Positions 3,481-26,481 of a stretch of 64,000 nt of DNA are shown one piece after another. The position numbers and the translations under genes were made by a program. Position 1 is the first letter of the stretch; the number at the start of each line of letters is the position of its first letter. The DNA is from an uncultured Granulosicoccaceae bacterium. GTDB taxonomy: Bacteria > Pseudomonadota > Gammaproteobacteria > Granulosicoccales > Granulosicoccaceae. Below the pieces are notes generated by a model that saw nothing but the letters and a program-made list of their open reading frames with translations, searched no databases and was not told the DNA's origin. The stretch spans positions 1 to 64,000 of the forward strand of contig CALLLW010000007.1 of assembly GCA_938007995.1 (NCBI GenBank), read 5' to 3'.

Positions 3481-4122
3481 TTACGCCGCTTGGTTTTTCT
3501 GGGTTGCAGTACTCATAAATTCATGCATTGTGGAGATAATCCGCGGGCGATGAAGAAGCAGCTCCTCATGTCGTTGAGAGTGCTTTGTAATCTGACTGGA
3601 AAGGGAGGTTATGTGGCACCAGCTAATTTTGTTGTCACTCAGCCTTTCCTCCATGTGAGTGATGGCGTCGGGGCAAAATCCACATCCTTGTATGCCGCTG
3701 AGTATGACGAGTTTTGTGCGACTGAAGATCTTGTCGTGCGTAAGGACCAGATCCACATGATCAGTGATTTCTCGTGTGGGGATTGTTTTTCTGATTTTCA
3801 CTTTTTCTGCGGGTGAGTAACTCCCATCGAGAGATCTAGGCGAAAAGTCGGTGATAACGATTGGGCTGCTGACTCGATCCATACAAGCAGCTTTGAGCTG
3901 AGACGGTGAGAGGTTTAGATAGTGCCCGAGCAGGCCATAGGAGCGATCCCAGAACGCAACAGAAGGCCATTGTCTGGCGGGTGTAGCGCCGCTGGATGCG
4001 TACCCACCGATTCTATGTTCCTTCTCCATGGAGTTGTTAGGCTCTCTGCCAACAACCACAATCAACGGGAAGTCCATGTCCGTTGTATTTCCAAATACGC
4101 TCAGATCCGCTTCTGTAGCCAT
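3481..4122 (-). CDS. Unknown protein, possibly UDG-fold
   Basis: A 213-residue protein whose ATG is preceded by AAGGAG at ideal spacing, which supports it over the overlapping plus-strand frame. I do not recognise it with certainty. An early strand PLIVVVGREPNN (about residues 18-29), a middle strand-helix TKLVILSGIQGCGFCPDAI and a late CHITSLS segment have the layout of the uracil-DNA-glycosylase superfamily: a GxxPG-like first loop, a central Rossmann-like strand and a late HxS motif. The match is weak and could be coincidental. No signal peptide or membrane helix is seen. It diverges from the HNH gene across a tandem-repeat region. Confidence 0.6.
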   Translation of the reverse strand: MATEADLSVFGNTTDMDFPLIVVVGREPNNSMEKEHRIGGYASSGATPARQWPSVAFWDRSYGLLGHYLNLSPSQLKAACMDRVSSPIVITDFSPRSLDGSYSPAEKVKIRKTIPTREITDHVDLVLTHDKIFSRTKLVILSGIQGCGFCPDAITHMEERLSDNKISWCHITSLSSQITKHSQRHEELLLHRPRIISTMHEFMSTATQKNQAA

Positions 4123-7349: not shown

Positions 7350-9134
7350 ATGGAGTTCGGTTCAACTGTGTTCAAGCAGATATCAGTGTCTATACCCGGC
7401 GGTGACGGATGCCCCTCATTTAACACTGACCTCGGTCGAGTAAATGTCGTTCTCGGCGTCAACGGGAGCGGTAAATCCAAACTTCTACATGATATTGCCT
7501 TCCATGTACGGGAAAGTGAACCTGAAAGCACAGTTGTACAAACCGTAGGTGGTAGGCAGATATTTCTGCAGTCAAGTGTCTCTGGTCGCGCTACTGCACC
7601 GGTAAAAACAGAATTTAAAGAATACCTTGAATCACAGACTAGGAATAGACTCCAAGAAATCAGTCGCGACACGGTGCAGGAATATTCTGATATGGGTGGA
7701 AGGAATACACTACTTACTCCTGAATCCCGATTACAAAGCGTACTTACCTTGCTGGCTTCTCAAATAGCTGGCTTTGAAGTTGATTATCGGAAAAAATTAT
7801 TTTCTTGGGGAGAATCAAATCGGTCGGAAGAAGCCCCAACCAGACAAGAATCCGATTTGTTAACTGCACTTCTTGGTTTGTTTACGGAAATATTCCCGGA
7901 GATCACAATTTCAGCGGTACACAATCCAAATGTCGGCGGGAACAACAGTCATAGTTTTACGCTCGAATGCTGTAAACGAGGGAAAACATACCCTATATAC
8001 AAGATGTCTGACGGCGAGAAACAAGTTTTCGCATCGCTCGCAGATCGCTTTGTTTTCGCGGATACGCAATGCGTATTTATTGTTGACGAGCCAGAACTCA
8101 ATCTGGACCCTGCGTTGGCGTGCAACTTTTGGAATGTAATGGAAAGAGAGATGCCAGAGAGCACTTTTCTGTTTGCTACCCATTCTATGGATTTCGCACT
8201 TCGACAAGGTGTCGAAAATATTTGGGTTCTGGGTCAAAAAGTCCCAACTAAAATCGACAAAGTACGATTAAAATCACTATCCATAGATGAGCAACGGGTG
8301 TTCCTCGGGAGCATTCGCGGTATCGTTATCGCTGATATCGGTGTCGTCGTAGAAGGAGAAGGAGCGGATACGTCGATAGACGCGATTATTTACCCTTGGC
8401 TGCTTGGCACTAACACAAGCGAAGTTTGCGTTCGCAGTTATGGAGGGTGCGATGATGTTATCGACGCCACGAAAAAAATTGATATCTGGGAAGAGATTGC
8501 ACCAAGCGCTAAGGTTGTAGGAATAGTAGATCGCGACTATCGTTCAGATGAAAAAATCTCAGCTATGGAAAATTCAAATTGCGTAGTTCTAAATCTACAC
8601 GATATTGAGTCATATCTATGCATGCCTTGTATACTCGTTGCTCTAGCAAAAAAACTTCAAATCAAAGATTTTCCGGCAGAGCAGGATATCAAGGAAAAAA
8701 TTGAACTTTTTTTCTCTAACCAGACAATAGTCACTGCTGCCCGGAGGATGTCGCTTCGCTGTAGCGTTAAGAGGCAAATCTCAATAAAAAAAGAAGTGCT
8801 TGCAAGCATCGATTCTGACGCAAAACTAATAAAGTCTGCTAAGGAATATGCAACTATTGATCAAAATAATCCGCCAGCTGAGACGTCAGTTGATAAGGTT
8901 GCAGCAGTGACGCGTGAAGAAATTAAAAGGTGTAACGACGCTCTTAAAAATGGAGATTTAATTGAACAGCTTACCCTGTTCAGGGGCAAGGAATTGTTAG
9001 ATGAAATCGCCAAACTGTTCCTTTTAGCGGACGGTAAGGCTCTTGCTGAGTATGTTGTCAATCATCTAGCACCAGATGATTTTTCTCATTTTAGGGAGCT
9101 TAAAACTCAAATTCTTGAACGCGCGAAAACCTGA
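7350..9134 (+). CDS. OLD-type AAA ATPase with TOPRIM domain
   Basis: A 594-residue protein. The ABC-type ATPase has Walker A GVNGSGKSK (36-44), signature-like SDGEKQ (220-225), Walker B FIVDEPEL with Asp246/Glu247, and an H-loop THS (277-279). A TOPRIM-like nuclease half follows: VVVEGEGAD with Glu335, VDRD (393-396) and HDIESY (417-422), the last typical of OLD/DUF4435-type proteins. OLD-family proteins are DNA nucleases, often acting in phage defence alone or with a helicase partner. No GajB-like helicase is adjacent. The next gene is UDG-like. The start has no strong ribosome-binding site but the frame and motifs are intact. Confidence 0.85.
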   Translation: MEFGSTVFKQISVSIPGGDGCPSFNTDLGRVNVVLGVNGSGKSKLLHDIAFHVRESEPESTVVQTVGGRQIFLQSSVSGRATAPVKTEFKEYLESQTRNRLQEISRDTVQEYSDMGGRNTLLTPESRLQSVLTLLASQIAGFEVDYRKKLFSWGESNRSEEAPTRQESDLLTALLGLFTEIFPEITISAVHNPNVGGNNSHSFTLECCKRGKTYPIYKMSDGEKQVFASLADRFVFADTQCVFIVDEPELNLDPALACNFWNVMEREMPESTFLFATHSMDFALRQGVENIWVLGQKVPTKIDKVRLKSLSIDEQRVFLGSIRGIVIADIGVVVEGEGADTSIDAIIYPWLLGTNTSEVCVRSYGGCDDVIDATKKIDIWEEIAPSAKVVGIVDRDYRSDEKISAMENSNCVVLNLHDIESYLCMPCILVALAKKLQIKDFPAEQDIKEKIELFFSNQTIVTAARRMSLRCSVKRQISIKKEVLASIDSDAKLIKSAKEYATIDQNNPPAETSVDKVAAVTREEIKRCNDALKNGDLIEQLTLFRGKELLDEIAKLFLLADGKALAEYVVNHLAPDDFSHFRELKTQILERAKT

Positions 9135-14358: not shown

Positions 14359-17300
14359 ATGAAAAAAGTACTTTTTAAGCGTTGTGCGACATCCCATCCG
14401 TTGTACGTTTGTACACTGACAGCGGGGCTACTCGGTAGCGTCACAGTCTATGCGTCTACAGAGTTTATAACTGCACCATCTCAGAGTGTGATTACACCTG
14501 AAGATACCGCAGTGCCTCTGGAGCTGCATCTTGATCCTGCTGCTTTTGATGGCGGTACGTTTCCCGAGTTTATCTTCACCAATGTGCCGGCAACGGTCAC
14601 ACTGGCATCGCCGGCAGGTACAGTAACAGACGACGGTGGTGGTAGCTGGACAGTCGATTCTGCAGCCATACCGGGTGTAACAGCATCGGGTACTGATCCG
14701 TTAATGCAACTCATCACAATAGATATGGATAACGTTGACACCGCAGATCTGGATGGTGATGAAGCAATTGAAGACGCTAACAACGGCGCAGGTGCAGACA
14801 AAGTAGATGTGCTGCAAGGTACCACAGACTTTACTCGGACAATTCTGCTTGATAGCGATGGAGATGGCCTGGCGGACATCAACGATCTGGATAATGACAA
14901 CGACGGAATACCGGATTCAGTAGAAGGAACCGGAGATACTGACGGTGATGGAATCCCTGATTATCTGGATACCGATTCAGATAATGACGGCATCCCTGAT
15001 GCAGAAGAACTTGCCTTTTTAACCGAATCTGATTCTCTTTGCTGGGATCACAATGACAATGGCGGTACTTCGTACGCCGGCGTTATTGGCACTGATCTGA
15101 TGGCCAGTGTAACGAATGTCAGTGACATCGGGTTCGGCGCTGGTTTTATTCAGCCAACCTCTAACTTCGAGCATGTACTCAGAGGAGCTGATTCGGTTGA
15201 CTATGTTGATGCCACTTTTAAGGCTGACTATGTAGAAGTCAGCTTTACTCTGACTGATCCTGCAACTCTTGATGAAGTGAAGCACGGTATGGTGCCTGTT
15301 GCCTGGGGTGGTTCAGCCGCAGGTGGTTACGATGTAGCAGTTGAAGTGTCTTCTGATAATTTTTCAACATCAACGTTGCTATACGATGATGGCCATCAGC
15401 CGCTTCCAAATGGTGGCTACGCGTTTACCTCTGAAACTGTCAGCCATAGCTTTGCGCCCGGCACACATACCGTGCGTTTCTATCTGTCGAACGAACAGAA
15501 CAATTATTCACCAGACAACACCGTTGCGTTCGATGACATGTGTCTGGATCTGACTGTCACCCAGCCAGTCCTGAGTGATGCAGACGGTGACAGTATCTTT
15601 GATCACCTTGATCAGGACAGTGATAACGACGGGATTCCGGACTTTATCGAAGGCAATGCAGATGCCGATGGTGATGGTATCCCTGATAATCTGGATCTCG
15701 ACTCCGATAATGACGGTATAACCGATTCCATAGAAGGGCAGACCACTGGTGTAGATACAGACGGTGACGGTATCGACGATGCCTTTGATGTCGACCAAAC
15801 CGGTGGTGTTGACGCAGATGGCAATGGCATTGATGACGCAGCAGTGCTTGATACCGACGGTGACGGCACGCCGGACTATCTGGATCTTGATTCTGACGGT
15901 GACGGCATCAACGATGCGATCGAAGGCAATGATACCAATGGTGATGGTTTTGCCGATGTAGCACCATCAGGTAACGATACTGATGGTGATGGTCTTGATA
16001 ATGCGTTTGATCCGGATAACGGCGGCAATTCAGCGGCAGTGCTCGATACAGATGGTGATGGACTGCCAGATTATATTGATCTCGATTCAGACGGTGACGG
16101 CATTCTCGATGATGATGAGAATGTAGGCGATACCGATGGTGATGGTGTACCGGATTACCTGGATCTTGATTCAGATGGTGACGGCATCGCGGATGCACTT
16201 GAGGGTAACGATGCCGACGGTGATGGTGTTGCAGATGTAGCACCTACCGGAGTCGATACAGACGGTGATGGCATTGACGATGTGTTTGATACCGACAATG
16301 GCGGTACACCGGTTGTAGTACAGGATACTGATGGCGATGGCACGCCTGATCATCTTGACCTTGACTCAGACAATGACGGTATCCTTGATACTGATGAGAA
16401 TGTTGGCGACACTGATGGTGACGGCATTCCGGATTATCTGGATCTTGATTCAGATGGTGACGGCATCAACGACGCGATCGAAGGCAACGATTCCAATGGC
16501 GATGGCTTTGCCGATGTCGCACCGACTGGAACCGATACAGACGGTGATGGTATCGATGACGCGTTTGATCCTGACAATGGTGGTACGCCTGCAACCATTC
16601 AGGATACAGACGGTGACGGTATTGCGGATCACATTGATCTGGATTCAGACGGCGATGGCATCCTTGATAGTGATGAGAACATCGGTGATACCGATGGTGA
16701 CGGTGTACCGGACTATCTTGATCTGGATTCAGATGGTGATGGAATCCCTGATGCCACAGAAGGCCATGATGTCGATGGTGACGGTGTCGCAGACGTCATC
16801 GCAAGTGGTACCGATACAGATGGTGATGGTATCGATGATGCGTTTGATGCAGATAACGGGGGAACTCCGGCAAGCACTCAGGATACCGATGGTGACGGAG
16901 TACCGGATCACATAGATCTTGACTCGGATGGTGACGGTATTCTTGATGCTGATGAGAGCAACGGTGATACAGATAGTGATGGTGTTCCGGACTATCTTGA
17001 CCTTGACTCTGATGGTGACGGCATTCCCGATGCACTCGAAGGTAACGATGCCAACGGCGATGGTCTAGCTGATGTAGCACCGACCGGCCTTGATACAGAT
17101 AGTGATGGTCTTGACGATGCGTTTGATCCTGATAATGGTGGAACGCCCGCCGCCACTCAGGATACGGATAGCGATGGCACACCGGACTTTCTGGATACCG
17201 ATTCAGATAACGACGGTATAGATGACAGCGTAGAAGCGGGTGCGTCTGCAACATCACCGGTAGATACCGATGGTGATGGCACGCCTGATTATCTTGATAT

Positions 17301-20300
17301 CGATTCAGACGGTGATGGTATCCCCGACACTCTGGAACCGGGTGACACAGATGGTGATGGTATCCCGAACTATCTTGATATCGATTCAGATAACGACGGA
17401 ATCAATGATGGCGTTGAAGCCCGGGTGGCCAATGTTGATAGCGATGGTGACGGCATACGTGACTTGTATGATGTTGATGTTACCGGCGGAACTGATGCCG
17501 ACGGTGACGGTGTAGACGATGTGTTTGGTGCATCAAACACACTCGATACAGACGGTGACGGTACACCGGATGCACTCGACACAGACAGTGATAACGACGG
17601 TGTTCCTGATGCGATCGAAGGTAATGTCGATACTGACGGTGATGGCATCCCTGATCATCTCGATTCCGACTCGGATAACGATGGTATTGCAGATGGTGTT
17701 GAAGCACAGATCACCGGTGTGGACACAGATGGTGATGGTATTGACGATGCGTTTGATGTTGACGTCACCGGTGGTGCCGACCTTAATGGTGATGGTGTAG
17801 ATGATGCAATCGAAGCAACCGGCACGGTAGACACAGACGGTGATGGTACACCGGATATGCTCGACGTTGATTCAGACAACGACGGAATTCCGGATACTCT
17901 GGAGCCAGGTGATACAGATGGAGATGGTATCCCTGATTACCTGGATACTGACTCCGATAATGATGGTATCGACGATGGTGTAGAAGCGCAGGTTGCCAAT
18001 GTTGACACTGACGGTGATGGTATCCGTGATGAGTATGATGTTGATGCAACAGGCGGTACCGATGCTGATGGCGACGGTGTGGATGATGCGCTTGGTGCTG
18101 CCAACACACTGGATACAGATGGTGACGGCACGCCGGATAAAAGAGATCTGGATAGTGATAACGACGGCATTCCTGATGCGCTGGAAGGTATCGCTGACAC
18201 CGATGGTGATGGTGTTCCTGATTATCTTGATACCGATTTAGACAACGATGGTATTGCTGATGGTGTTGAAGCACAGATCACCGGTGTAGACAGTGACGGT
18301 GACGGCATTGACGATCTTTATGATGTCGATGTAACCGGTGGTACCGATGCAGACGGTGATGGCGTAGACGACGCACTGGAATCAAGTGACACGCTTGATA
18401 CTGACGGCGATGGCATTCCCGATGCGGAAGATCTGGATTCAGATGGTGATGGTGTGCCGGATGCTATCGAAGGTGCAGGTGATACCGATGGTGATGGCGT
18501 CCCCGACTTCCTCGATACAGACTCCGATAACGATGGAATCCCTGATGATGTTGAAGCACAGATTACCGGTACGGATACCGATGGTGACGGCATTGATGAC
18601 CTCTATGATGTAGACGCTACCGGAGGTGTTGATGCAGACGGTGACGGCGTAGACGATGCACTCGAAGGCTCAGACACACTGGACACCGATGGTGATGGAA
18701 TCCCTGATGCAGAAGAATCAGACTCCGATGGCGATGGAATCCCTGATGCAATCGAAGGTGATGTAGACACAGACGGTGACGGTATCCCTGATTATCTGGA
18801 TCTTGATTCAGACAATGACGGTATTCCCGATGCTGATGAAGCCCAGCTCAGTGGTATAGACACAGACGGTGACGGCATCCTTGATGAGTTTGATGTGGAT
18901 CCCTCACCAACTAAACCAGGTGGTGGAGTTGATGCTGACGGTGACGGCGTTGATGATGCAGCAGAGGCAGCAGGCACTATCGACACAGACGGTGACGGTA
19001 TTCCGGATAATCTTGATGATGATTCAGATGGTGACGGCGTACCAGATGCGGTTGAAGGTAATGTTGATACTGATGGTGACGGCACGCCGGACTATCTGGA
19101 TCTTGATTCAGACAATGACGGCATAACGGATAACGCAGAGGCCGGTCCTGCATCTGCAACCCCGGTTGATACCGATGGTGACGGTACACCGGATATGCTG
19201 GATGCAGATTCAGATGGCGACGGTATTCCGGATACTCTGGAGCCGGGTGACACCGATGGCAATGGTATCCCGAACTATCTTGATATCGATTCAGATAATG
19301 ATGGCATCAACGATGGCGTTGAAGCTCAGGTGGCCAATGTTGATACCGATGGCGACGGCATACGTGACTTGTATGATGTTGATGTTACTGGCGGGACCGA
19401 TGCCGATGGTGACGGTGTAGACGATGTGTTTGGTGCTTCAAACACTCTTGATACAGACGGTGACGGCACACCGGATGCACTCGACACAGACAGTGATAAC
19501 GACGGTGTAGCTGATGCAATCGAGGGCAACGTAGATACTGACGGTGACGGTACCTCTGATTACCTTGATACTGATTCAGATAACGATGGTATCTCTGATA
19601 GCATGGAAGCACAGATTAGCGGTGTAGATTCAGATGGAGACGGTATCGACGATGCGTTTGATATCGATTCCACCGGTGGTGCTGACCTCGATGGTGATGG
19701 TGTTGATGATGCGATAGAAGCCACTGGCACAATCGAGACAGACGGTGATGGCACGCCTGACATGCTTGATCTTGACAGTGACGGTGACGGTATCCCTGAT
19801 ACGTTAGAGCCGGGCGACACCGATGGTGACGGCATCCCGAACTATCTTGATATTGATTCTGATAACGATGGTATTAACGATGGTGTGGAAGCACAGGTTG
19901 CTAACGTTGATACAGACGGTGATGGCATCCGTGATCTTTATGATGTTGATGTCACAGGAGGCACCGATGCTGATGGTGACGGTGTAGACGACTCGTTTGG
20001 TGCATCTAATACACTTGACTCAGACGGTGATGGTACGCCAGACGCACTGGATGTAGATTCCGATGACGACGGCATTCCTGATGCGATAGAAGGCATCACT
20101 GATACCGACGGCGACGGCATCCCAGATTATCTGGATACCGATTCAGATAACGACGGTATTCCGGATAACGTGGAAGCCCGGGTCAGTGGCGTTGATACAG
20201 ACGGCGATAGCATTGATGACATCTACGATGTCGATGCGACTGGCGGCAGCGACCTCGATGGTGACGGTGTAGACGATGCGATAGAAGCCATCAGCACACT

Positions 20301-23300
20301 CGACAGCGATGGCGACGGTACTCCGGATGCACTGGACCTTGATTCAGATAACGACGGTATCCCCGATGCTGTTGAAGGCACGGCAGACACAGACGGTGAT
20401 GGTATCCCGGATTATCTTGATGGTGATTCTGATAACGACGGCATCCTTGATTCTCAGGAGGGCACCGTAGACACAGACGGTGACGGTATCCCTGACAATC
20501 TGGATGTCGATTCAGATGACGACGGAGTTCCTGATGCCATCGAAGGCAATATCGACAGCGATGGTGACGGCACACCGGACTATCTGGATGTGGATTCAGA
20601 TAACGATGGTATTCCTGATACAAATGAAGCCATGGTCACAGGTACAGACACAGACGGTGACGGTATCGATGATCTGTACGATGTTGATGTGACAGGTGGA
20701 ACCGATGCAGATGGCGACGGCGTAGACGATGCGCTTGAATCCGACGAAACCTTCGACTTTGATGGTGACGGTATCCCTGACGCACTGGAAACAGACAGCG
20801 ATAACGACGGCGTACCGGATGCAATCGAAGGTACTGTGGATACAGATGGTGATGGCATCCCTGATTACCTGGATCTTGATTCAGACAACGACGGAATCGC
20901 CGATGGCGTAGAAGCGCAGGTCAGTGGTGTAGATACTGACGGCGACGGCATCATGGATGAGTTTGATGTTGATCCCTCACCACTTAAACCAGGGGGTGGA
21001 GTTGACGCAGACGGTGATGGTGTCGACGATGCAATCGAAGCCGCAGGCACGATCGATACAGACGGTGACGGCACACCGGATAGGTACGATGCAGACTCTG
21101 ATAACGACGGCATCCCTGATGCAGTAGAAGGCACAGTGGATACTGATGGCGACGGTGCACCGGACTATCTGGATGAAGATTCAGATGGTGATGGTATTCC
21201 TGATTCGGTTGAAGGTGTTGTAGATACAGACGGTGAAGGTACCCCGGACTATCTGGATGAAGACAGCGACAACGACGGCATTCCTGATGCAGTCGAAGGC
21301 GATGTTGAGTCAGATGGAGACGGCACCCTGGATTATCTGGATGTAGATTCAGACGGTGATGGTATCCCTGATGCAATCGAGGGCGATGTAGACACCGACG
21401 GCGATGGTACACTGGATTATCTGGACACAGATTCAGATAACGACGGTATCCTTGACAGCGATGAAGCCCAGGTCACAGGTGATGATTCAGACGGTGACGG
21501 CATTGATGATCTGTTTGACACAGACCAAACCGCAGGCACAGATGCAGACGGCGACGGTGTAGACGATGCGTTAGAAGCATCAGGTACCCTCGACACCGAT
21601 GGTGACGGTATACCTGACGCGCTGGATGCAGATTCAGACGGTGATGCTATCCCGGATGCCATCGAAGGCAACGTCGATACAGACGGTGACGGCATCCCGG
21701 ACTATCTGGATGTAGACAGCGACAACGATGGCATTCTCGATAGTGAAGAGGCCATGGTAAGCGGTGTAGATTCGGATGGTGATGGTATCGATGATCTGTA
21801 CGATGTTGATACTACCGTTGGTACTGATGCAGATGGTGATGGCGTAGATGACGCAATCGAAGCCGCCGGCACAGCAGACACAGACGGTGACGGCATCCCG
21901 GATGCACTGGATGTGGACTCAGATGGCGACGGTATTGCGGATGCAATCGAAGGCAATGTTGATACAGATGGTGATGGCACGCCGGACTATCTTGATACTG
22001 ACAGCGACAACGATGGAATCCCTGATGCTATAGAAGCACCGATCTCGGGTGTAGATACAGACGATGATGGCATTGATGACCTATACGATGTTGATGCAAC
22101 CGGCGGAGTCGATGCCAACAACGACGGTATTGATGATTCAGCTGCTGTACTCGATACTGATGGTGATGGCGCGCCGGATTATCTTGAGCCAGACTCGGAT
22201 AACGACGGCATATCAGACTCGTTAGAAGGCACAGCTGATACAGACGGTGACGGCATCCCTGACTATCTGGATCCTGATTCAGATGGTGATGGTATTCCTG
22301 ATTCTGTAGAAGCGGGCAGTGATGCAGCGAACCCTGCCGACACAGACGGTGATGGTACACCTGACTTCCTGGAGCTTGACTCTGATAATGACGGTATACC
22401 GGATGATATCGAGGCAGGTGCTAACCCTTCATCACCGGTAGACACAGACGGTGACGGCACGGCTGACTTTCTGGAAGAAGATTCAGACAATGACGGCATA
22501 CCAGACTCGCTAGAAGGTACAGCTGATACAGACGGTGATGGCATCCCTGATTATCTTGATGAAGATTCAGATGGTGATGGTATCCCTGATTCAATAGAAG
22601 CAGGCGCTGATCCGGCAAACCCGGCAGATACAGATGGTGACGGTACGCCTGACTTCCTGGAGCTTGACTCTGATAACGACGGCATCCCTGATTCAGAAGA
22701 AGCCGGTAGTGATTCAGCTAACCCGGTAGACACAGACGGTGATGGTACACCTGACTTTCTCGAAGAAGATTCAGACAATGACGGTATACCAGACTCTGTA
22801 GAAGGTACAGCTGATAAAGACGGTGACGGTATCCCTGACTACCTGGATCCGGATTCAGATGGTGATGGAATCCCTGACGCTCTGGAAGCAGGTGTAGATC
22901 CAGCCAATCCTGCAGACACCGATGGTGATGGTACACCTGACTACCTTGAACAGGATTCAGACAACGATGGTATTCCTGACACAGTAGAAGCGGGCAGCGA
23001 TCCAACAGCACCGGCAGACACTGATGGTGATGGTATACCAGACCTCCTGGAGCAGGATTCAGACAACGATGGTATCCCTGACACTGCAGAAGCGGGCGTT
23101 GATGCAACGATGCCAGTGGATACAGATGGTGATGGTACGCCTGATTTTCTTGAAGATGATTCAGATGGTGATGGTATCCCTGATTCACTTGAAAGCACTG
23201 CAGACAGTGACGGTGACGGTATACCGGATTTTCTTGATGAGGATTCCGAAAACGATGGTATACCAGACTCGCTAGAAGCTGGCAGCGATCCAGCCGCGCC

Positions 23301-26300
23301 AGCCGATACAGACGGTGACGGTACGCCTGATTATCTTGATCTCGATTCAGATGGTGACGGTATACCTGATACTGCAGAAGCGGGTTTAGATCCAACGACG
23401 CCGGTAGATACCGATGGTGATGGTACACCTGACTTCCTTCAAGAAGATTCAGATAACGATGGTATCCCTGATTCGCTTGAGGGAACTGCTGACACTGATG
23501 GTGATGGCATTCCTGACTATCTTGATGAAGATTCAGATGGCGACGGTATCCCTGACTCTGTAGAAGTGGGTAGTGATGCAGCCAACCCTGTGGACACAGA
23601 TGGTGACGGCATACCAGACTTCCTGGAGCTGGATGCAGATAACGATGGTATTCCGGATAACACCGAAGCCGGTGCCGATGCCACTAACCCGGTAGACACT
23701 GATGCAGACGGCATCCCGGATTATCTCGATCTTGATTCAGATAATGACGGTATTGCCGATGCATTGGAAGCAGGAGCAGATCCATCCAATCCGGCCGACG
23801 CCGATGGCGATGGCACGCCTGACTTTCAGGAACCTGGTTCAGACTCTGACGGAGACGGTATTCCGGATTCAATAGAAGGTACCAGTGATACCGATGGTGA
23901 TGAAATCCCTGACTTTCTTGATGAAGACTCGGATAACGACGGGATACCTGATTCAGTAGAAACCGCAGTCGACTCAGACGGTGATAGTCTTGAGGACTAT
24001 CTAGACATCGACGCCGATAACGACGGCATCAGTGATGCGTTTGAAATGGCTGATGACACTGATGGTGATGGTGTTGAAGACTTCCGTGACCTCGATGTTG
24101 ATAACGACGGCATCTTTGATCTGATCGAAGCACGTATTGGTCAGGTTGAAGTGGTCCAGATCGATACAGACAACGACGGTATCATCGACTTCAGCAACGC
24201 CTATGGCAGCAATGGTATGGCAGACATCGTAGAGACTGCACCTGACTCAGGCGAAGAGAACTACGAACTGCCGGATATCGATGGTGATGGCGTACTCGAC
24301 TGGCGCGATCTGGATTCAGATAACGATGGTCTGTTAGACACCGAAGAGTCTGATCATGAAGATGAAAACCTGAACGGCATTATCGATACGGTAGGTGCAG
24401 TAAGACGAACCATACTGGAAGTTGATAGTGCAGGTCTGGCAGATGATGCCGGTGGCTTACCGCGTAACTCCGATGGAGATGGCCTTGCCGACTTCCGTGA
24501 TGCAGACAGTGATAACGACGGTATCATGGATATCGTCGAGTCATTCGGTGCTGGTGTTGATCTTGATAACGACGGTATGTTCGATGACTTCGTTGATACG
24601 GACGGTGATGGTATTGATGACGTCTTCCAGGTGGCTCCGGTAGCACCGGCTGATACAGATGGTGATGGTATTGCTGACGCGAACGAAATCGATTCCGACG
24701 GCGATGGTATCTCTGACCTGATTGAATCAGGTGGTATGGACGCAGATGGCAACGGCACACTGGATGACTTCACAGACAGTGATGGCGATGGTATAGACGA
24801 TACCGTTGCTGCAGTACCAACGATAGCAACAGACTCTGATGGTGACGGCATTCCTGACTTCCAGGAGCTTGATTCAGACAACGATGGCTTGAGTGACATT
24901 GCAGAGACTGGCGGTATCGATGCCAATGGTGATGGTATTGCTGATGAGCCGGTGCCGGGGGCAGCCCTGCCGGATGTTAATGGCAATGGTATTCCTGATT
25001 ACCAGGACCCGAATGGCCTTGATCCATTGCCAATCGGAGAAGCGAACGGGCGGATAAAAACCGGTCTTCAAGGTAGCGGTTGCTCGATTGTGACACCGCT
25101 GAATTCTAACGGTACAACAAAGGTCGATCCAATGTTACCTATGTTAAGTATGCTGGCGCTGATGGGTCTTGTGATCCGCAGACGATCAGGTGCAGTAAAA
25201 AAGTGTGCAGGTAAGGCAGTGAGTGTGGTGGCAGTGACGATAGGGTCGCTGTTCCTCAGTGGCTGCGCTTCCTTCAACGGTTTTTCTGATGGCGTGTCTG
25301 GTTTGTGGGGCAAAAGCGAATCACGCTTTAGCTCGGATGAAGTCACACGTGATTATGAAGATCGACTGTCACTGGGATTGTATGCGGTAGCAGGCATAGG
25401 CCCGAGTCGTCTGGAGCCTGACACTACTGAGGTGCCGGGCTGGGATCCGAACGATCGTGTAGAGCCCGCAGGTCAGATCACCATCGGTGCCGATCTAACC
25501 AGGCACTTGTCAGTAGAGGCGCACTCGGCAGACCTGGGCAGCGCAGGGTTATCTGCACCAGCGGTCGGTGAAGAAGGTCGTATCAACTACCACATCAACG
25601 GCGTAAGCGCGTTGTTGTATGCCGGTGGCAACCGACATCGCTTCAGACGGCAGGGATTGACTGCTTATGGTCGTGTTGGCTTTGGTTCACTTGAAAATAC
25701 TCCGGTAGGTGATGTGCCTTTCGAAAAAATCAATGCTACACACTTTCTGTTGGGTGCGGGCGTAGAGTACATGACGCCAATTGGTGTGGGTTTACGACTC
25801 GAAGGTGTGTCTTTTGATGAAGACGTGCAGTATGCACAACTGGGATTGATGTATCGCACAGGTCGTAAGCAAGAGATAGTCAGACCGAAGCTGTCACAAG
25901 CGCCAGTGCTAAAGCCAGAACCAGAGCCGGTAGTTGCAGCAGCAGCGCCACCACCACCTCCGCCACCGGCGTATGTACAAGCGCCGGTACCGGTAGTAAA
26001 TCAATGTGCCGGCCTTGATGGAGTACTGGAAGGTGTAAACTTCCATACCGATTCAGCAGAGCTGACCGCCACGTCTATGGATGTACTCGATGATATCTCG
26101 CTCAGACTGGGCACATGTGAGGAAACGCAGATAGAGATATCGGCACATACAGACAGCGTGGGTGCGGAGAGTTACAACCAGAGCCTATCCGAGAGGCGTG
26201 CAAGATCAGTGGCAGAGTATCTGAGTGCCACCGGTGTATCGCGCGGCAGACTGAAGGCAACTGCGTTCGGTGAGACCAGCCCGATAGATACTAACGACAC

Positions 26301-26349
26301 CAAAGAAGGCAGAGCACGTAATCGCCGGGTGGAGTTATACGCCAGATAG
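14359..26349 (+). CDS. Giant TSP3-repeat surface protein fused to OmpA lipoprotein
   Basis: A 3,996-residue secreted protein. Residues 1-33 look like a signal peptide; 34-163 are a beta-rich domain; TSP3 calcium-binding repeats (DTDGDGIPDYLD type) cover about 164-222 and 405-3553. A 180-residue beta-sandwich-like insert (about 225-403) may be a binding domain. Residues 3573-3609 (GSGCSI..., DPMLPMLSMLALMGL, RRR) resemble a Cys-containing C-terminal sorting signal. This is followed at once by a basic, hydrophobic lipoprotein signal with lipobox LSGC (Cys3636), an outer-membrane beta-barrel (about 3655-3845), a Pro-rich linker and an OmpA peptidoglycan-binding domain (3883-3996, HTDSVGAESYNQSLSERRA). 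TSP3 repeats bind calcium and stiffen on binding, so a long surface fibre or adhesin is likely. The frame is continuous, so a fusion of two genes is the simplest reading; an internal start near residue 3602 could also make the OmpA part alone. Confidence 0.9.
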   Translation: MKKVLFKRCATSHPLYVCTLTAGLLGSVTVYASTEFITAPSQSVITPEDTAVPLELHLDPAAFDGGTFPEFIFTNVPATVTLASPAGTVTDDGGGSWTVDSAAIPGVTASGTDPLMQLITIDMDNVDTADLDGDEAIEDANNGAGADKVDVLQGTTDFTRTILLDSDGDGLADINDLDNDNDGIPDSVEGTGDTDGDGIPDYLDTDSDNDGIPDAEELAFLTESDSLCWDHNDNGGTSYAGVIGTDLMASVTNVSDIGFGAGFIQPTSNFEHVLRGADSVDYVDATFKADYVEVSFTLTDPATLDEVKHGMVPVAWGGSAAGGYDVAVEVSSDNFSTSTLLYDDGHQPLPNGGYAFTSETVSHSFAPGTHTVRFYLSNEQNNYSPDNTVAFDDMCLDLTVTQPVLSDADGDSIFDHLDQDSDNDGIPDFIEGNADADGDGIPDNLDLDSDNDGITDSIEGQTTGVDTDGDGIDDAFDVDQTGGVDADGNGIDDAAVLDTDGDGTPDYLDLDSDGDGINDAIEGNDTNGDGFADVAPSGNDTDGDGLDNAFDPDNGGNSAAVLDTDGDGLPDYIDLDSDGDGILDDDENVGDTDGDGVPDYLDLDSDGDGIADALEGNDADGDGVADVAPTGVDTDGDGIDDVFDTDNGGTPVVVQDTDGDGTPDHLDLDSDNDGILDTDENVGDTDGDGIPDYLDLDSDGDGINDAIEGNDSNGDGFADVAPTGTDTDGDGIDDAFDPDNGGTPATIQDTDGDGIADHIDLDSDGDGILDSDENIGDTDGDGVPDYLDLDSDGDGIPDATEGHDVDGDGVADVIASGTDTDGDGIDDAFDADNGGTPASTQDTDGDGVPDHIDLDSDGDGILDADESNGDTDSDGVPDYLDLDSDGDGIPDALEGNDANGDGLADVAPTGLDTDSDGLDDAFDPDNGGTPAATQDTDSDGTPDFLDTDSDNDGIDDSVEAGASATSPVDTDGDGTPDYLDIDSDGDGIPDTLEPGDTDGDGIPNYLDIDSDNDGINDGVEARVANVDSDGDGIRDLYDVDVTGGTDADGDGVDDVFGASNTLDTDGDGTPDALDTDSDNDGVPDAIEGNVDTDGDGIPDHLDSDSDNDGIADGVEAQITGVDTDGDGIDDAFDVDVTGGADLNGDGVDDAIEATGTVDTDGDGTPDMLDVDSDNDGIPDTLEPGDTDGDGIPDYLDTDSDNDGIDDGVEAQVANVDTDGDGIRDEYDVDATGGTDADGDGVDDALGAANTLDTDGDGTPDKRDLDSDNDGIPDALEGIADTDGDGVPDYLDTDLDNDGIADGVEAQITGVDSDGDGIDDLYDVDVTGGTDADGDGVDDALESSDTLDTDGDGIPDAEDLDSDGDGVPDAIEGAGDTDGDGVPDFLDTDSDNDGIPDDVEAQITGTDTDGDGIDDLYDVDATGGVDADGDGVDDALEGSDTLDTDGDGIPDAEESDSDGDGIPDAIEGDVDTDGDGIPDYLDLDSDNDGIPDADEAQLSGIDTDGDGILDEFDVDPSPTKPGGGVDADGDGVDDAAEAAGTIDTDGDGIPDNLDDDSDGDGVPDAVEGNVDTDGDGTPDYLDLDSDNDGITDNAEAGPASATPVDTDGDGTPDMLDADSDGDGIPDTLEPGDTDGNGIPNYLDIDSDNDGINDGVEAQVANVDTDGDGIRDLYDVDVTGGTDADGDGVDDVFGASNTLDTDGDGTPDALDTDSDNDGVADAIEGNVDTDGDGTSDYLDTDSDNDGISDSMEAQISGVDSDGDGIDDAFDIDSTGGADLDGDGVDDAIEATGTIETDGDGTPDMLDLDSDGDGIPDTLEPGDTDGDGIPNYLDIDSDNDGINDGVEAQVANVDTDGDGIRDLYDVDVTGGTDADGDGVDDSFGASNTLDSDGDGTPDALDVDSDDDGIPDAIEGITDTDGDGIPDYLDTDSDNDGIPDNVEARVSGVDTDGDSIDDIYDVDATGGSDLDGDGVDDAIEAISTLDSDGDGTPDALDLDSDNDGIPDAVEGTADTDGDGIPDYLDGDSDNDGILDSQEGTVDTDGDGIPDNLDVDSDDDGVPDAIEGNIDSDGDGTPDYLDVDSDNDGIPDTNEAMVTGTDTDGDGIDDLYDVDVTGGTDADGDGVDDALESDETFDFDGDGIPDALETDSDNDGVPDAIEGTVDTDGDGIPDYLDLDSDNDGIADGVEAQVSGVDTDGDGIMDEFDVDPSPLKPGGGVDADGDGVDDAIEAAGTIDTDGDGTPDRYDADSDNDGIPDAVEGTVDTDGDGAPDYLDEDSDGDGIPDSVEGVVDTDGEGTPDYLDEDSDNDGIPDAVEGDVESDGDGTLDYLDVDSDGDGIPDAIEGDVDTDGDGTLDYLDTDSDNDGILDSDEAQVTGDDSDGDGIDDLFDTDQTAGTDADGDGVDDALEASGTLDTDGDGIPDALDADSDGDAIPDAIEGNVDTDGDGIPDYLDVDSDNDGILDSEEAMVSGVDSDGDGIDDLYDVDTTVGTDADGDGVDDAIEAAGTADTDGDGIPDALDVDSDGDGIADAIEGNVDTDGDGTPDYLDTDSDNDGIPDAIEAPISGVDTDDDGIDDLYDVDATGGVDANNDGIDDSAAVLDTDGDGAPDYLEPDSDNDGISDSLEGTADTDGDGIPDYLDPDSDGDGIPDSVEAGSDAANPADTDGDGTPDFLELDSDNDGIPDDIEAGANPSSPVDTDGDGTADFLEEDSDNDGIPDSLEGTADTDGDGIPDYLDEDSDGDGIPDSIEAGADPANPADTDGDGTPDFLELDSDNDGIPDSEEAGSDSANPVDTDGDGTPDFLEEDSDNDGIPDSVEGTADKDGDGIPDYLDPDSDGDGIPDALEAGVDPANPADTDGDGTPDYLEQDSDNDGIPDTVEAGSDPTAPADTDGDGIPDLLEQDSDNDGIPDTAEAGVDATMPVDTDGDGTPDFLEDDSDGDGIPDSLESTADSDGDGIPDFLDEDSENDGIPDSLEAGSDPAAPADTDGDGTPDYLDLDSDGDGIPDTAEAGLDPTTPVDTDGDGTPDFLQEDSDNDGIPDSLEGTADTDGDGIPDYLDEDSDGDGIPDSVEVGSDAANPVDTDGDGIPDFLELDADNDGIPDNTEAGADATNPVDTDADGIPDYLDLDSDNDGIADALEAGADPSNPADADGDGTPDFQEPGSDSDGDGIPDSIEGTSDTDGDEIPDFLDEDSDNDGIPDSVETAVDSDGDSLEDYLDIDADNDGISDAFEMADDTDGDGVEDFRDLDVDNDGIFDLIEARIGQVEVVQIDTDNDGIIDFSNAYGSNGMADIVETAPDSGEENYELPDIDGDGVLDWRDLDSDNDGLLDTEESDHEDENLNGIIDTVGAVRRTILEVDSAGLADDAGGLPRNSDGDGLADFRDADSDNDGIMDIVESFGAGVDLDNDGMFDDFVDTDGDGIDDVFQVAPVAPADTDGDGIADANEIDSDGDGISDLIESGGMDADGNGTLDDFTDSDGDGIDDTVAAVPTIATDSDGDGIPDFQELDSDNDGLSDIAETGGIDANGDGIADEPVPGAALPDVNGNGIPDYQDPNGLDPLPIGEANGRIKTGLQGSGCSIVTPLNSNGTTKVDPMLPMLSMLALMGLVIRRRSGAVKKCAGKAVSVVAVTIGSLFLSGCASFNGFSDGVSGLWGKSESRFSSDEVTRDYEDRLSLGLYAVAGIGPSRLEPDTTEVPGWDPNDRVEPAGQITIGADLTRHLSVEAHSADLGSAGLSAPAVGEEGRINYHINGVSALLYAGGNRHRFRRQGLTAYGRVGFGSLENTPVGDVPFEKINATHFLLGAGVEYMTPIGVGLRLEGVSFDEDVQYAQLGLMYRTGRKQEIVRPKLSQAPVLKPEPEPVVAAAAPPPPPPPAYVQAPVPVVNQCAGLDGVLEGVNFHTDSAELTATSMDVLDDISLRLGTCEETQIEISAHTDSVGAESYNQSLSERRARSVAEYLSATGVSRGRLKATAFGETSPIDTNDTKEGRARNRRVELYAR
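14848..25010 (+). repeat. TSP3 calcium-binding repeat array (coding)
   Basis: Tandem DNA repeats encoding Asp-rich units of the type DxDGDGIPDxLDxDSDNDGI, interrupted once at about 15,030-15,570. Several higher-order units recur, for example the block with VANVDTDGDGIRDLYDV (around 17.4, 18.0, 19.3 and 19.9 kb) and EAGxDxxxPxDTDGDGTPDFL units in the last third (22.3-23.8 kb). The different block types suggest successive rounds of expansion. Long open frames in the other five frames here are shadows of the repeat. Confidence 0.95.
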
Positions 26350-26382: not shown

Positions 26383-26408
26383 AAAGCCCGCAAAAGCGGG
26401 CTTTTTTG
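26383..26408 (+). terminator. Rho-independent terminator of giant gene
   Basis: AAAGCCCGC, loop AAAA, GCGGGCTTT with a T-run, 34 bp after the stop codon. A second GGCGGGC plus T8 partial copy follows at about 26,447-26,461. Confidence 0.92.
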
Positions 26409-26481
26409 TTACGGTATTTTATTTTTTTTATTTATTTTTTTAGGGAGGCGGGCTTTTTTTTATGGGTTTACATGGTGCTCT

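Follow-up and report, generated by a model that had tools for sequence, protein, structure and literature searches.

The window, the whole stretch of 64,000 nucleotides that was analyzed, belongs to a genome of 4.69 Mb in 94 contigs. Within it, a giant repeat protein, two internal signals, a barrel, and an OmpA domain are encoded by one open reading frame. The following features were identified:

14359..26349, forward strand: fused open reading frame of 3,996 amino acids, consisting of a repeat fibre, a JDVT-CTERM tag, a lipoprotein signal, a barrel, and an OmpA domain
14359..14454, forward strand: probable N-terminal signal peptide (MKKVLFKRC...TVYA/S), as read from the translation
14851..24891, forward strand: thrombospondin-type-3-like D-x-D-x-D-G repeats, 182 motifs, 29% Asp, residues 165-3511
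25072..25185, forward strand: JDVT-CTERM sorting tag (GSGC...DPMLPML...RRR), NF033191 at 32.4 bits, cut-off 27
25081..25083, forward strand: Cys3575, the tag cysteine and expected lipidation target, by analogy with the system described in PMC11980579
25132..25197, forward strand: predicted helix 1 of a hairpin, comprising the tag helix and the start of the basic loop (AlphaFold2 helix 49-70 at modest confidence; hydropathy)
25177..25218, forward strand: basic loop RRRSGAVKKCAGKA, net charge +6, expected to be cytoplasmic
25216..25260, forward strand: predicted helix 2, the hydrophobic core of the lipoprotein signal (AlphaFold2 helix 77-91 at low confidence; hydropathy)
25255..25266, forward strand: lipobox LSGC by sequence pattern, with Cys3636 at nt 25264
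25375..25857, forward strand: predicted eight-stranded OmpA-like beta-barrel (AlphaFold2, pLDDT mostly ~90 or above; Foldseek match to the OmpA barrel)
26041..26325, forward strand: OmpA peptidoglycan-binding domain (PF00691, 80.7 bits; Foldseek matches to OprF and OmpA domains)
26383..26411, forward strand: intrinsic-terminator-like hairpin 3' of the fused ORF (consensus scan)

An earlier note on this DNA had placed a Cys-type sorting signal in the middle of the protein, which was confirmed and could be assigned specifically to JDVT-CTERM, with the NF033191 match above its curated cut-off. The GSGC motif occupies residues 3572-3575 (nt 25072-25083), DPMLPML starts at residue 3590, and RRR lies at residue 3607. 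However, the tag is internal and is followed by 387 residues after RRR in the same frame, so that the protein is a JDVT-CTERM variant with an internal tag and not a standard member. The claim that the frame runs on into a lipoprotein signal and an OmpA protein held to the residue (LSGC at 3633-3636), in one open frame. The ORF at 14359-26349 is itself stop-free, and stops across the junction are present in both remaining forward frames. The second signal includes an RRR...KKCAGK n-region, the core VSVVAVTIGSLFL, and LSGC, as is expected of bacterial lipoproteins, but it is found at an internal rather than an N-terminal position. In an AlphaFold2 model of the last 453 residues, two junction helices of modest to low confidence preceded a confident eight-stranded barrel and the OmpA domain. 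The top Foldseek match of the model was E. coli OmpA, and a TM-score of 0.75 on the target was obtained for OmpA-short.

A consensus scan revealed no promoter-like or terminator-like site at the junction. The profiles of CglD and MtsC matched the repeat region, both below cut-off. Membership in TraB was rejected, as the score was 74.4 bits against a cut-off of 700 and only the OmpA domain was shared. Additionally, positions 7350-9134 of the window encode a protein with AAA_21 and DUF4435, possibly a defence-type ATPase.

The nearest relative, another Granulosicoccaceae species of the same genus (G005), was also found to be fused, with an open frame of 3,649 codons, 78% identity, and an ungapped alignment to the window at the junction. 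Over 48 junction codons, the two sequences differed by a pS of 0.79 and a pN of 0.21 per site, and by 0.68 and 0.26, respectively, in the loop alone. As pS was far above pN at the junction, the loop included, the loop is translated and under selection as protein. The window's genome also contains a fused paralogue (C24, locus L010) and a paralogue composed of two genes (C50), where the first gene ends in the tag and the second starts inside its stop codon (ATGA).

Fused ORFs were searched in 57 relatives and then in 369 genomes of the class Gammaproteobacteria, most of them draft or metagenome assemblies. A total of 48 were found in 10 families, including 29 from the family of the window and 19 from nine others. 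All 48 shared a common order: an extracellular region of repeats or other sequence, a tag-like motif, a hydrophobic helix, a loop, a second helix that is likewise hydrophobic, and the barrel. The loop, ranging from 3 to 43 residues in length, was net-positive in every one, and the stretch after the second helix was neutral or acidic in 44. With signal sites assigned by pattern and by eye, a lipobox was found at the end of the second helix in 17 of the 48 and at the end of the first helix in none (Fisher p ~3e-6); the pattern had initially given 20, of which L057, L058, and L071 were dropped by eye, where an A-type site follows. Another 30 fused ORFs contained an A-ending site of the signal-peptidase-I type, mostly shortly before the barrel. 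A second cleavage site was hence present in 47 of the 48, the exception being paralogue C24, which had no clear site. Judged from these patterns, the arrangement of tag helix, basic loop, and second signal is far beyond chance. Some relatives have a type II signal where others have type I, and therefore the trait that has been kept appears to be cleavability.

The tags themselves varied. When ten tags outside the window's family were compared to NCBIfam, two were above the cut-off for JDVT-CTERM and three for GlyGly-CTERM, one was just above the cut-off for a MYXO-CTERM-type model, and the rest were below; several tags within the window's family were also below the JDVT cut-off. The tag cysteine was lost in three fused ORFs of the family (L036, L050, and L063, reading GGGS or HGSMG), whose genomes encode MrtJ. 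These three may have switched to rhombosortase, and in some copies, namely the same three and C24, one of the two cuts or both may be missing. Among individual fused proteins, L056 (G015:C70) has an open frame of 12,049 codons and a tandem repeat (TQGKLTQGK...) inside the tag region. The two-helix junctions of L018 and L051 had a weak match to NF058595, the 'lipo-invert putative C-terminal anchoring domain' (16 bits, cut-off 37), which could point to other hairpin tails.

The distribution of candidate processing enzymes was compared with the tags. The window's genome encodes MrtJ at G000:C8 (105.5 bits, cut-off 75), as well as a rhombosortase and the type II secretion protein GspD, both above cut-off; GspD was present in all eight genomes tested. 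MrtJ was above cut-off in 20 of the 33 genomes with fused ORFs, in contrast to 21 of 151 in a sample of the class. When genomes were separated by tag, 18 of the 19 carrying a Cys-type fused tag were found to have MrtJ, but only two of the 14 whose fused tags were all Cys-less (p ~3e-6, a value that overstates independence, since most Cys-type genomes represent one family and the traits were inherited together). Outside the window's family, Cys-type fused tags occurred in two genomes only, both with MrtJ, while MrtJ was absent in 12 of 13 others. Exceptions included G030, which has Cys-type tags and no MrtJ match in an assembly that is 88% complete, and G027 and G087, which have MrtJ but Cys-less fused tags. 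Rhombosortase exceeded its cut-off in each of the 33 genomes that have fused ORFs and in 49 of the 151 in the class sample, and the non-Cys tags resemble GlyGly-CTERM. In the MYXO-CTERM model, as published in PMC11980579, the tag cysteine is lipidated, a protease cuts after it, and the protein is exported by type II secretion; the same text describes MrtJ as a close relative of the MYXO-CTERM protease.

Besides the fused form, two separate genes are kept in some relatives and in paralogue C50, with the smallest overlaps being 4 bp. Several split pairs share one reading frame, interrupted by nothing more than a stop codon. A tree of 99 barrel/OmpA regions, which was built quickly and includes many weak forks, indicated at least 11 changes between the fused and adjacent-gene states. 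Sister rows were found to differ, for example in G027, where copy L063 is fused and L034 is split, and in L110 and L095. Such free interchange would be expected if both forms give the same two mature proteins. The earlier note had considered a stop between the halves in relatives as a sign against the fusion; such relatives were indeed found, but as recurring sister states they are not evidence of error.

A row of three genes was observed in G078, G099, G112, and G340 (L121, L122, L123, and L083), which belong to families other than the window's. It consists of a giant with a JDVT-like tag, a barrel/OmpA gene, and an MrtJ-type gene (assigned by eye in G340), with the first two genes overlapping or nearly touching. 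Similarly, an OmpA gene adjoins MrtJ in L124. The three-gene row corresponds to the window's gene in unfused form, together with its probable processing enzyme. A further giant repeat ORF, located on contig C51 of the window's own genome (L013:127-16608; 5,493 codons from stop to stop), ends in a JDVT-like tag, and no OmpA partner was found downstream of it.

With the frame, signals, conservation, gene context, and enzyme co-occurrence as observed, the sequence makes it likely that the ORF encodes a polyprotein precursor, from which cleavage at the two internal signals would release a surface-anchored giant and an OmpA partner. We infer the membrane topology, both cleavages, the lipidation, the secretion route, and the interaction of fibre and partner as follows. 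The N-terminal signal would direct export of the giant repeat fibre to the periplasm, and the JDVT-CTERM helix would halt in the inner membrane, leaving the RRR...KK loop in the cytoplasm. The second hydrophobic segment would re-insert as a lipoprotein signal, such that the OmpA half is exported too. By the positive-inside rule, a basic loop between the tag helix and the second signal suggests a hairpin with its loop in the cytoplasm. MrtJ, an intramembrane protease, would take part in lipidation and cleavage at Cys3575 and free the fibre, for which type II secretion is the probable route to the cell surface. Lgt and LspA, which like signal peptidase I belong to established signal-processing pathways, would act on the lipobox at Cys3636 and free the barrel/OmpA lipoprotein, leaving a two-helix hairpin as the residue of processing. 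Equal numbers would result of a surface fibre and of a partner that sits in the outer membrane and binds the wall, matching the products of the overlapping two-gene form. Both what the fibre does and how it would interact with the OmpA partner are guessed by analogy with TraA and TraB. Where the earlier note had offered a choice between a fusion and two products of a single message, the two are thus favored together: the fusion is real, as seen in G005 and 46 more ORFs, and the two products would arise from two cut signals in one chain.

Alternatively, the lipoprotein could be translated directly from an internal start codon of the ORF, with the fused frame being incidental. The window does contain an in-frame ATG (25162) and two GTGs (25171 and 25219) near the junction, the last with a weak AGGT spaced 6 from it, and partners in the two-gene relatives are made from their own start, with overlaps down to 4 bp. 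Such initiation is nevertheless quite improbable: 21 of the 48 fused ORFs have no ATG, GTG, or TTG in the loop, and only five contain one that has a 4-base Shine-Dalgarno match and is followed by a basic residue. As a rough yardstick, a Shine-Dalgarno start was present in 36 of 49 two-gene homologues, for which the stretch searched was longer than the loops. In G005, the two GTGs of the window read GTA and GCG, leaving only the ATG of the tag helix as a shared start, without a Shine-Dalgarno match. Moreover, a signal starting at GTG 25219 would lack positive charges, and a second gene would by chance be in frame only ~1/3 of the time. It is also unlikely that the fusion stays uncut, as a single chain whose hairpin retains it in the inner membrane or whose barrel draws it to the outer membrane. 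This would agree with the open frame, the junction predicted as two helices, and paralogue C24, in which the fusion is kept and the second cleavage site is unclear. A mere anchor, however, would need neither the signal-peptidase II/I-type site kept after the second helix in 47 of the 48 nor a tag cysteine that tracks MrtJ.

The remaining explanations concern the reading of the frame itself. Programmed -1 frameshifting, for which dnaX is a precedent, could produce a short form that terminates at TAA 25212, given that a correctly phased heptamer A_AAA_AAG (25197-25203) is present and that a stop follows in the -1 frame only a few codons later. The corresponding site in G005 reads G_AAA_AAG, and this very improbable mechanism was rejected, as the heptamer is not kept. 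A sequencing or assembly error, where a base was lost or gained between overlapping genes, had been raised by the earlier note and could be suspected from the run of six A at the junction and from the ATGA overlap of the close paralogue C50. It is contradicted by G005, an independent MAG with a matching junction that is also open and codon-constrained, by the fused paralogue C24 in the same genome, and by 46 further fused ORFs, some from genomes of ~10 contigs. Error was rejected on these grounds and retains hardly any probability; the fused design is probably a bacterial polyprotein instead.

To our knowledge, processed polyproteins are rare in bacteria, and none of this kind was found in the open-access papers that were searched. 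C-terminal sorting tags are annotated as if they always end a protein. If the polyprotein reading is true, an internal tag followed by a signal peptide would be a regular design in Gammaproteobacteria, where annotation gives a single name to what are two surface proteins, and the simultaneously made barrel/OmpA protein would be the partner of the JDVT-CTERM and GlyGly-CTERM giants. Because one gene reports both cuts, a direct test of the roles of MrtJ and rhombosortase would be possible. A broader proposal appears somewhat more plausible than its opposite, namely a widespread class of polyproteins in which the tag and signal peptide form a membrane hairpin with two unrelated membrane proteases acting on it, MrtJ or rhombosortase on one side and signal peptidase II or I on the other, fixing a 1:1 ratio of giant fibre and wall anchor, with lineages switching between this form and overlapping genes.

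Among known systems, the cytochrome b/c1 (fbcH) precursor of Bradyrhizobium is encoded by one ORF and yields two envelope proteins through a cut at an internal signal sequence. Unlike the window's ORF, it belongs to a respiratory complex and includes neither a sorting tag nor a tag protease. The JDVT-CTERM/MrtJ system shares with the window the NF033191 tag and an MrtJ in the genome, and elsewhere MrtJ adjoins the JDVT protein; it differs in that the window's tag is internal and followed by a second export signal, and the gene rows add the barrel/OmpA gene as a third member. In the outer-membrane exchange pair TraA and TraB of Myxococcus xanthus, the ORFs overlap by four bases (PMC3325183), as in paralogue C50, and a sorted surface protein is likewise combined with an OmpA-domain partner, but the two are separate genes rather than a fused ORF. 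Together with this pair, the nearest precedent is M. xanthus MXAN_5598, one ORF with a large adhesin region, an internal Cys-type tag (MYXO-CTERM), an outer-membrane barrel, and an OmpA domain, which PMC11980579 compares with TraA and TraB and for which it proposes processing of the N-terminal part. The idea of an internal tag has therefore already been published. MXAN_5598 is a single atypical protein of Myxococcota, and a second internal signal is not mentioned in the accessible part of that paper, whereas the ORFs described here have JDVT-CTERM or GlyGly-like tags and Gammaproteobacteria hosts, number 48, and have the second signal documented. As far as searchable papers show, the second internal signal, the breadth across Gammaproteobacteria, the match between tag and enzyme, and the repeated switching appear to be new.
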